Positions 35,726-42,726 of a stretch of DNA of 64,000 bases are shown here, piece after piece. This DNA is from Oscillospiraceae bacterium (GTDB lineage Bacteria; Bacillota; Clostridia; Oscillospirales; JAAYXM01). Location of the stretch: NCBI GenBank assembly GCA_015067485.1, contig SVMJ01000008.1, positions 1 to 64,000 on the forward strand, read 5' to 3'. Both the position numbers and the translations under genes were made by a program. Position 1 is the first letter of the stretch. Each line of letters begins with the position of its first letter. A model generated the notes under the pieces. That model made no database searches. It had not been told where the DNA came from and saw only the letters and a program-made list of their open reading frames with translations.

Positions 35726-35826
35726 GGCAGCGGGATGCGGAATCTGTACGGCAGCGCATTGGCGCTTTCGTCTGCGCAACAACTCCCCGTTTGCACAGCA
35801 CTTCACCCACAGAGACCTACTCTGCC
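35726..35826 (-). promoter_or_regulatory. Tetrahydrofolate (THF) riboswitch
   Basis: 101 bases on the minus strand between a P1 stem GGCAG/CTGCC. In order it shows GAGTAGG, GGTGAAGTG, a stem CTGTGCAA/TTGCGCAG around GGGGA, ACGAA, a GCGC-loop-GCGC hairpin and the 3' block TCCGCATCCCGCTGCC. The order and wording match the THF riboswitch consensus as I remember it. It stands directly upstream of folT, the classic target. Confidence 0.85.
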
Positions 35827-40110: not shown

Positions 40111-41223
40111 ATGTCTAGTTTGTCCTTGAAAAACATTTATAAGCGTTTTGCCGGCGGCGTAACTGCAGTTTCCGATTTCAACATTGATATCGAAGACAAA
40201 GAGTTCGTCATTTTGGTTGGTCCGTCCGGTTGCGGTAAGTCCACCACTCTGCGTATGATCGCAGGTTTGGAAGAGATTTCCGAAGGTGAACTCTACATCG
40301 ATGACACTTTGGTCAACGATATCGCACCGAAGGATCGCGACATCGCAATGGTGTTCCAGAACTACGCTTTGTATCCGCATATGACCGTTTATGAAAACAT
40401 GGCATTCGGTCTGAAACTCCGCAAGACCCCGAAGGATGAAATCCGCCGCCGTGTTGAAGAAGCAGCACGCATCTTGGAAATCGACCACTTGCTCGACCGT
40501 AAGCCGAAGGCTCTCTCCGGTGGTCAGCGTCAGCGTGTCGCACTCGGTCGTGCAATCGTTCGTCAGCCGAAGGTCTTCCTGCTTGACGAACCGCTTTCCA
40601 ATCTCGACGCAAAGCTCCGTGCTTCCATGCGTTCCGAGCTTTCCAAACTCCATCAGAAGTTGGCAACCACCTTCATCTACGTTACCCACGACCAGGTCGA
40701 AGCAATGACCATGGGTACCCGTATCGTTGTTATGAAGGACGGTTTCGTTCAGCAGATCGCTGCTCCGGATGTTCTTTACAACACTCCGGCAAATCTCTTC
40801 GTTGCAACCTTCATGGGTTCTCCGCAGATGAACACCTTCGAAGCAAAGCTCACTGAAGAAAACGGCGTAACCTACGCTTGCTTCGGCGATGTTAAGATTG
40901 CTCTGCCGGAAGGCAAGGGCAGAAAGCCGGAAGTTCTTTCCTACATCGGCAAGGAAGTCATCTTGGGCATCCGTCCGGAAGACATCCATGACGAAGAAAT
41001 CTTCCTCAGCCAGTATCCGGATGCACAGGCAGATGCAGTTGTTGACGTCTCCGAAATGATGGGTGCTGAAACCCATTTGCATCTTAACTGCGCAGGTATC
41101 AACATGGTTGCTCGCGTTTCCCCGCGTGCACACACCAAGATCGGCGACAACATCAAGATCGTCTTCAACACAAACAAGATCCATCTCTTCGACAAGGAAA
41201 CCGAAAAGGTTATCACCAACTAA
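40111..41223 (+). CDS. Sugar ABC transporter ATP-binding protein (MsmX/UgpC type)
   Basis: 370-residue ATPase of the CUT1 carbohydrate importers. Walker A GPSGCGKST, signature LSGGQRQRV, Walker B VFLLDEPLSNLD, switch His in THDQ. A C-terminal OB/TOBE regulatory domain (about 240-365) includes GIRPEDIH. No permease or binding-protein gene is near, as for MsmX, which serves several importers. It has the strongest codon bias in the neighbourhood, implying high expression. GGAGG precedes the ATG; a possible GTGAAA-16-TATACA promoter is at 40034-40061. Terminator at 41323-41358. Confidence 0.93.
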   Translation: MSSLSLKNIYKRFAGGVTAVSDFNIDIEDKEFVILVGPSGCGKSTTLRMIAGLEEISEGELYIDDTLVNDIAPKDRDIAMVFQNYALYPHMTVYENMAFGLKLRKTPKDEIRRRVEEAARILEIDHLLDRKPKALSGGQRQRVALGRAIVRQPKVFLLDEPLSNLDAKLRASMRSELSKLHQKLATTFIYVTHDQVEAMTMGTRIVVMKDGFVQQIAAPDVLYNTPANLFVATFMGSPQMNTFEAKLTEENGVTYACFGDVKIALPEGKGRKPEVLSYIGKEVILGIRPEDIHDEEIFLSQYPDAQADAVVDVSEMMGAETHLHLNCAGINMVARVSPRAHTKIGDNIKIVFNTNKIHLFDKETEKVITN

Positions 41224-41259
41224 GTTTTCGTGGAAAGCGCCTCAAAGCAACTCGCTTTC

Positions 41260-41533
41260 GGCGGCTTCAGTTAGGGAGAAAATGGTTTTGGACCGTTCTT
41301 TTCCGCAAATACTGCATCAAAAAAACACCGTAATCCGTCAGATTACGGTGTTTTTGTTCTTTGTCTTTGCGAAAAAGTTCACGCCCAAAACTGCTACGCA
41401 TCCTAAAACGAGGATTTCGTGATTCGGAGCGAGCAAAAATTGCGAGAGAATCCTGGCGGATCTTGAGCGATTTTTGGGATGCTACGGACTCGAAATACCG
41501 TTTTAGGACAATTGATCCCTAACTGAAGACGCC
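41260..41533. repeat. Inverted terminal copies flanking a long stem-loop
   Basis: GGCGGCTTCAGTTAGGGA (41260-41277) and its reverse complement at 41516-41533 match at 17 of 18 positions. Each is bordered on its outer side by a GCGCC/GGCG hairpin. Inside, 41401-41508 folds back on itself with conserved blocks such as CCTAAAACG, ATTTCG and CAAAAAT on both arms. Confidence 0.75.
41323..41358 (+). terminator. Terminator of the MsmX-type ATPase gene
   Basis: AACACCGTAATC-cgtca-GATTACGGTGTT followed by a T run, about 100 bases after the stop codon. Confidence 0.85.
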
Positions 41534-41568
41534 GTTGGCGCTTTTTTAGATTGTTTACATTCTTGTCA

Positions 41569-41597
41569 TTGATTTTTCGACAAAAGTTTGCTATGAT
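41569..41597 (+). promoter_or_regulatory. Probable promoter of the CdaR-type regulator gene
   Basis: TTGATT (41569-41574) and TATGAT (41592-41597), 17-base spacer. ATGATAAT (41593-41600) and ATTATCAT (41618-41625) form a perfect inverted repeat across the start of transcription. Confidence 0.5.
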
Positions 41598-41637
41598 AAT
41601 ATATGTGTATAACTAAAATTATCATGGGGTGGTTTTG

Positions 41638-42726
41638 ATGTCCGGAAGAATGTTGCAGAGTGTTGTATTACAGATGAAGGAAGCAACAGATCGTATCATC
41701 GGCGTGTTGGATGCATCCGGTGCCGTGATCGCTTGTACCAACCTGTCTAAGATGGGGGAAAACAACGAACGCGCACTTAGTCTTTTGGAATCTGCGGAAA
41801 CATGTGTGAAAAATAGCGGCTTCACCTACAAAGCACTTGCCTCATGGGGTATGCGCATCGACTACGCCGTGTTCGTGGAAGGGGAAGACGCACTTGCGGA
41901 AAGCCTGTGTCAGATGGCTGCAGTTGCGCTGAATAGTGCAAAGAAGTTCTACGACGAAAAACACGACAAAGCAACTTTCGTGAAAAACATCATTTTGGAT
42001 AATATTCTCCCGGGCGATATCTATGTCCGCTCGAACGAACTGAACTTTGCGACTGATGTTCCCCGCGTGGTCTTTTTGATCCGTCAAACCGATAAGACCG
42101 ACATTGCCGCGGTGGACGTTTTGGAGAATCTCTTCCCGGATAAGCAGCAGGATTTCGTTCTCAGCGTGAGCGAGAGCGATTTGGTGCTGGTCAAGGAAGT
42201 GCGCGCCAATGCGGGTGCGAAGGAATTTGTCAAACTGGCAAAGACCATTGAAGAAACACTCAATTCCGAACTGTTTGTGAAAACCGTCATCGGCATCGGT
42301 ACGGTTGCACCGAGTCTCAAAGACCTGTCGGTTTCCTATAAGGAAGCACAGAGCGCACTCGAAGTCGGAAAAGTGTTTGATACCGAGAAGAACATCATCA
42401 GTTATGAAAACCTGGGCATCGGGCGCTTGATTTATCAGCTCCCGACAACCCTGTGTGAGATGTTCCTTTCCGAAGTGTTCAAAAAGAGCTCGATCGATGC
42501 GCTGGATCAGGAAACTCTGTTCACCATTCAGAAATTCTTTGAAAATAACTTGAACGTTTCCGAGACCTCTCGTAAACTCTTCGTTCACCGTAACACTCTG
42601 GTTTATCGCTTGGAGAAGATCAAGAAAATCACCGGTTTGGATTTGCGTGAATTTGACCATGCGATCGTCTTCAAAGTCGCTTTGATGGTTAAGAAATACT
42701 TATCGAACAACGAGATCGCTTTTTAA
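41638..42726 (+). CDS. CdaR/PucR-family transcriptional regulator
   Basis: 362 residues. The N-terminal part (about 1-125) has an unidentified sensor-like domain; the middle (about 130-270) resembles the degenerate GGDEF-like domain of CdaR proteins. The C-terminal helix-turn-helix of PucR type (about 290-360) contains FFENNLNVSETSRKLFVHRN and TLVYRLEKIKKITGLD. Homologs control carbohydrate-acid or purine use. GGGGTGG precedes the ATG 41638. It lies 31 bases before ftsE on the same strand, so it may be co-transcribed with the division operon. Confidence 0.85.
   Translation: MSGRMLQSVVLQMKEATDRIIGVLDASGAVIACTNLSKMGENNERALSLLESAETCVKNSGFTYKALASWGMRIDYAVFVEGEDALAESLCQMAAVALNSAKKFYDEKHDKATFVKNIILDNILPGDIYVRSNELNFATDVPRVVFLIRQTDKTDIAAVDVLENLFPDKQQDFVLSVSESDLVLVKEVRANAGAKEFVKLAKTIEETLNSELFVKTVIGIGTVAPSLKDLSVSYKEAQSALEVGKVFDTEKNIISYENLGIGRLIYQLPTTLCEMFLSEVFKKSSIDALDQETLFTIQKFFENNLNVSETSRKLFVHRNTLVYRLEKIKKITGLDLREFDHAIVFKVALMVKKYLSNNEIAF

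Follow-up and report, generated by a model that had tools for sequence, protein, structure and literature searches.

An element of 276 bp at positions 41259..41534 of the window (the whole 64,000-nucleotide stretch analysed, from positions 1 to 64,000 of contig SVMJ01000008.1 of an Oscillospiraceae bacterium) is very probably a non-autonomous, MITE-like mobile element, one of a family of about 275–280 bp whose members are inserted into intrinsic terminators with duplication of 2 bp. It is given here on the + strand, an arbitrary orientation for a sequence that is nearly dyad-symmetric, and it aligns with the copies in its own genome and with about 30 other full-length copies. It lies between the gene of an MsmX/UgpC-type sugar ABC transporter ATPase (40114..41223, + strand) and that of a CdaR/PucR-type transcription regulator (41638..42726, + strand), and contains no plausible gene of its own.

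The initial annotation of this region had left the choice between a MITE-like element and a structured RNA as one that could not be decided. Traits of both are indeed seen, and the question resolves in favour of a mobile element whose fold is conserved. We call the element MITE-like and mobile in view of its repetition at unrelated loci, its terminal inverted repeats, the target duplication and the empty site found in relatives. As the single strand also has a strongly covarying fold, neither reading excludes the other.

Ends, copies and distribution of the family

The element is bounded by 19-bp terminal inverted repeats, CGGCGGCTTCAGTTAGGGA on the left (41259..41277, + strand) and its inverse, with one mismatch, on the right (41516..41534, - strand). 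Within them lies the pair that had first drawn attention, the 18-base arm GGCGGCTTCAGTTAGGGA (41260–41277) and its inverse (41516–41533), which match at 17 of 18 positions and span 274 bases as described. Each end reads nGGCG, then eight variable, mutually complementary bases, then TAGGGA, and most full-length copies have 0–3 mismatches in these 19 bp. The length of the element is nearly constant across genera, at about 275–280 bp.

No second copy was seen in the window, in agreement with the initial annotation: TTCAGTTAGGGA is unique there, with about 0.14 chance matches expected at up to one mismatch. The own genome as a whole, a 1.37-Mb draft of 21 contigs that is 83% complete, holds about 8 copies, the window copy included. 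Among them are full-length copies on other contigs that are about 80% identical, a second subfamily at 68–70% identity, one internally deleted copy and one copy apparently broken by two contig ends. The search of the full genome and of relatives that had been proposed thus returned further copies in both, and the fallback reading of a single-copy, unconserved spacer does not hold for a sequence with this copy number, with a family in relatives and with a covarying fold.

By sequence search the element is carried by 13 of 147 genomes, own genome included, the weakest of these matches being probably due to chance. A covariance model of the left half extends the range to 80 of 394 sampled genomes and 39 of 168 genera of the order, and to other orders of the class Clostridia with matches down to E 1e-27; the model's E-values are approximate, and generic hairpins may account for the weakest matches of the order list as well as of the class list. 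Scanning named genomes with a pattern gave 70 stretches, nearly all of them from Clostridia/Oscillospiraceae metagenome assemblies and mostly of ruminant hindgut origin. A pattern search of viral contigs found no copy, and a distant BLAST search found none in phage and plasmid records. The near-complete genome G240 (99% complete, 3 contigs) contains 15 full copies of 277–280 bp.

Shortened copies are common (L010, L122, L250 and L251). The last two, which are solo ends in G240 (L250 at G240:C2, ~944617; L251 at G240:C3, ~46863), are identical 31-bp deletion derivatives, AGGGCGACACCGATAAGGATGTTTAAGCCCT, each lying again within a terminator, a different one in each case, with AA at either end. 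They stem either from two separate occurrences of one deletion, through a short repeat of GCC, or from movement of the 31-bp form itself. In the drafts G147, G010, G052 and G003 many contigs stop about 120–140 bp inside a copy, and the element therefore appears to be a frequent cause of assembly breaks.

Searches of Rfam at gathering and relaxed thresholds gave no convincing family over the element in 11 loci. Within the window the sole Rfam match is a THF (tetrahydrofolate) riboswitch, away from the element at 35726–35826 on the - strand (86.9 bits). The openly licensed literature yielded no description of an element that targets terminator loops, which is weak evidence of absence, and the family is apparently undescribed so far.

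Copies are found within split terminators

Most copies are flanked by two short, mutually pairing arms, which typically start in an A-tract and end in a T-tract. These arms differ from copy to copy even among elements that are 98–99% identical (L003, L004 and L005): those of L003 are AAAAAGGTCGAACCT.../...AGGTTCGACCTTTTTT, and those of L004 are AAAAGGACGCC.../...GGCGTCCTTTTT. For 35 full copies from many genomes, the mean pairing energy of a copy's own flanks is -15.7 kcal/mol as opposed to -7.5 kcal/mol for swapped flanks, and none of 10,000 permutations fell below -9.9 kcal/mol. The result was replicated in the 15 copies of G240, an independent genome (-14.3 compared to -8.1 kcal/mol, p < 1e-4).

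When the flanks are rejoined, a terminator-like hairpin is formed across the junction in 26 of the 35 copies (swapped mean 5.3, maximum 11) and in 11 of the 15 copies of G240 (swapped mean 3.4, maximum 8), that is, at 37 of 50 sites in both sets together. At L246, for instance, the rejoined site reads AAAAGAAGCC-TCTT-GGCTTCTTTT and is followed by a T-rich tail. Judged from their flanking sequences, the copies are inserted in different predicted intrinsic terminators, usually in the hairpin loop. About a quarter of the rejoined sites fail the terminator score; these are real exceptions, or else copies that are old or have been rearranged. One copy in G240 (L244, G240:C2, ~1220404) lies not in a loop but in the T-tract that immediately follows a complete terminator hairpin, and the junction of the window copy falls where an inner hairpin has its base, not exactly in the loop.

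In the window, the terminator that is split belongs to the upstream gene. Its 5' part (41234..41258, + strand) consists of the arm AAAGCGCC and an inner hairpin, AAAGC-AACTC-GCTTT, while its 3' part (41537..41547, + strand) consists of the arm GGCGC and a T-tract (GGCGCTTTTTT). The initial annotation had assigned a separate GCGCC/GGCG hairpin to each terminal arm; these bases are better accounted for by one long-range stem, AAAGCGCC (41234–41241) with GGCGCTTT (41537–41544), by which both parts of the terminator native to the host are joined.

Relatives provide the empty site. In one genome of the same genus (G001) and two of the same family (G003 and G002), a plain terminator without the element is found between the same two genes, as in GCATCCCGAGGC-GAAT-GCCTCGGGATGC-TTTTTTT. 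Its counterpart in the window is divided into AAAGCGCC at 41234–41241 and GGCGCTTTTTT at 41537–41547, and the sequence just downstream of the site is conserved between the window and G001.

The neighbouring genes of the copies form no consistent set, and the loci are non-homologous. A copy of the own genome (L003) and one of the distant G010 (L027) both adjoin the end of a glyoxalase gene with different terminator arms, and are possibly independent insertions at the same site.

A 2-bp duplication marks the junctions

The element in the window is bordered by TT on both sides (41257..41258 and 41535..41536, + strand). In 36 of 50 copies the 2 bases before the element are the same as those after it; AA or TT accounts for 32 of these cases, and TA and CA for the other four. 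Permutation and offset controls support the duplication: the number of matches peaks sharply at the exact junction, and shifted positions in those copies give no more than 17. Stretches of A or T are frequent in terminator loops, and part of the matches could therefore arise without any duplication. The TA and CA cases, four in all, and the sharp peak at the junction nonetheless argue that the 2-bp duplication is real.

The same dinucleotides could in principle be the 2-bp crossover sites of a small serine recombinase instead of a DDE-type target duplication. The predominance of AA or TT, which are the same dinucleotide read on either strand, agrees with such an enzyme, but TA and CA are also found, CA and AA even in one genome (L070 and L124 versus L077), and no recombinase gene was noticed in linkage to a copy in an unsystematic look. 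We therefore consider a serine recombinase unlikely and retain the reading of a MITE-like element with a target duplication.

The element is an inverted duplication with a covarying fold

The region of the element in the window folds at -139.3 kcal/mol, in comparison to -91.4 ± 5.1 kcal/mol for shuffled sequences (z = -9.4). In an alignment of 28 copies the structure comprises 103 pairs with 90.9% of cells paired, as opposed to 39–48% in a slid control in which the partners were moved by 1–3 columns, and 62 of the 103 pairs have changes on both sides. Covariance modelling of homologs, as suggested at the outset, thus reveals stems that covary strongly.

Two domains lie on either side of a very small central hairpin, TGC-TAC-GCA (41392..41400, + strand), whose pairs are unchanged in 28 of 28 copies. 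It forms the centre of dyad symmetry, where the matches of the half-unit model meet. Domain 1 (41285..41391, + strand), which is supported by covariation, is a GTTTTG...CAAAAC stem around a bidirectional terminator-like hairpin, AAAAACACCGTAATC-CGTCA-GATTACGGTGTTTTT, at its tip (41321..41355, + strand); in this tip 95.9% of cells are paired and 9 of 15 pairs are changed on both sides across the 28 copies. The hairpin had been noticed before and taken for the msmX terminator; it is present, but lies within the element as one of its parts and recurs in other copies. Domain 2 (41401..41508, + strand) corresponds to the 108-base fold-back of the initial annotation, which is borne out, and is the inverted homologue of domain 1, matched by the left-half model on the other strand.

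A unit of about 130 nt, duplicated in inverted orientation, makes up the element. The covariance model built from the left half finds the right half on the opposite strand in the window copy (43.5 bits, E 1.4e-8), in L003 (51.5 bits) and in others, and in L231 the two halves score almost equally (66.2 and 65.8 bits). Each half contains a terminal repeat and an A-tract/T-tract hairpin that resembles a bidirectional terminator. With an A-tract before the stem and a T-tract after it, the hairpins of both domains have the form of putative bidirectional terminators; a consensus terminator scan picked up the domain-1 hairpin only.

Wobble pairs were counted in both domains. In domain 1, G-U is rarer than A-C (8 versus 25), whereas in domain 2 it is commoner (93 versus 31). 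As these counts contradict each other between the domains and are not independent, we do not use them to assign an RNA strand.

A fold of this kind also calls to mind a structured non-coding or cis-regulatory RNA of the host, dispersed as a paralogous family, for which transposition would be incidental or ancient. The very strong covariation over the whole length, the conserved unpaired sequence blocks and the placement of copies directly 3' of genes would all fit this explanation. On the other hand, the copies occupy non-homologous loci without consistent neighbours and carry the 2-bp end duplication, shortened copies are common, the wobble counts favour neither RNA strand and no Rfam family matches, and we regard a host RNA as quite improbable. 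A mobile element that retains a conserved fold is our preferred reading.

Search for the enzyme that moves the element

No autonomous partner was detected through the terminal repeats: the own genome and four other carriers contain no pair of ends at IS length, a search limited by the collapse of copies at contig ends in these drafts, and in the near-complete G240 all paired ends are 277–280 bp apart, with none at IS length. As a partner may lie in another genome or in the missing part of the own genome, or may lack these ends, the element is named MITE-like and is not assigned to an IS family.

IS30 transposases make 2-bp duplications at palindromic targets. An IS30-type transposase (NF033563) was detected in none of 11 element-bearing genome entries, with control genomes positive, and is thus ruled out as the general mover. 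Y1 transposases have been proposed as the movers of REPINs. Only 3 of the 11 entries gave a hit to the Y1 transposase domain (Y1_Tnp, PF01797), and two of these three (G003 and G148) are apparently a single genome, their hit coordinates being identical; the domain is absent in the own genome, G050, G064, G092 and others. A Y1/RAYT transposase is ruled out as the general mover by this absence from most carrier genomes. Candidates for the mover are a transposase of an uncharacterised type, a domesticated enzyme and a recombinase that uses a 2-bp crossover.

These results also bear on the proposal that the element is REPIN-like, in which case a Y1 (RAYT/IS200-type) transposase from another locus of the genome would move a palindromic doublet in the form of single-stranded DNA. 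The doublet of inverted units, the cloverleaf-like fold, the compensatory changes and the lack of an autonomous copy are traits in common with REPINs and RAYT-associated REP doublets (PMC3116915). However, most carrier genomes are without a Y1 transposase, and the element targets terminators with a 2-bp duplication. IS200/IS605 elements are not known to have terminal inverted repeats or to duplicate 2 bp of their target, and REPINs are shorter than the element. This makes a REPIN-like origin very improbable.

Finally, although the outer and inner stems are continuous, it is scarcely credible that the outer stems are the element's own and the terminator-like flanks co-evolved in place without any insertion, as this is contradicted by 98–99% identical elements with unrelated outer stems and by the intact, element-free terminators between the same genes in relatives.

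Discussion

The element has the properties of bacterial MITEs, being short, non-coding, intergenic and multi-copy at unrelated loci, with terminal inverted repeats, a target duplication and a stable fold; it differs from them in targeting intrinsic terminators, in its whole-length covarying two-domain fold, in its near-constant length and in that no parent IS was found (PMC10969869). SPRITE of Streptococcus pneumoniae is likewise interspersed, resembles a Rho-independent terminator and is enriched behind genes, and consists of one terminator-like stem with a U-rich tract behind it; its ends are AAAA/TTTT, and no target duplication is known for it (PMC3049150). Our element, in contrast, lies inside another terminator and has 19-bp terminal repeats and two domains; with different ends, length and fold, it does not belong to SPRITE.

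IS1397 and IS621 insert into the loop of REP palindromes. Hairpin-forming DNA as a target is a trait that they share with the element (PMC1525189). Those insertion sequences are autonomous and enter one repeated sequence, whereas the terminators entered by the element have structure alone in common. Group IIC introns recognise intrinsic terminators, as the element does, but insert downstream of the hairpin, and are ribozymes with a reverse transcriptase; they are not known to make a target duplication. The element thus resembles MITEs in its apparent working, REPINs in its architecture and SPRITE in its position, with no known parent IS.

We propose that an enzyme acting in trans would insert the element into intrinsic terminators, with a preference for the hairpin loop, and that the insertion would duplicate 2 bp, mostly AA or TT. 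Because the target sequences differ and only their structure is common, the terminators are presumably chosen as hairpins. After insertion, folding of the element would reunite the split terminator arms at its base. Insertion is likely to be near-neutral or tolerated, since it occurs past the stop codon, supplies terminator-like hairpins of the element's own and allows the split stem to re-form, and a terminator as landing site probably spares host genes. The fold, in turn, may be kept because the moving enzyme recognises it, or because it sustains the termination of transcription.

More tentatively, both partners could be recognised by shape, that is, the folded two-domain element on one side and the exposed terminator hairpin loop on the other, by a host or orphan enzyme of neither the IS30 nor the Y1/RAYT type. 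The element might then be a safe-landing parasite, which replaces the terminator that it splits with its own.

The family is widespread mobile DNA of gut Clostridia with an unusual target, namely terminators of any sequence, mostly in the loop. If confirmed, it would be a natural example of structure-guided, near-neutral insertion and would help to explain why draft genomes of such bacteria break at a repeat of about 280 bp. Predicted terminators in these genomes may, in that case, be insertions, and the family would point to a hairpin-recognising enzyme.
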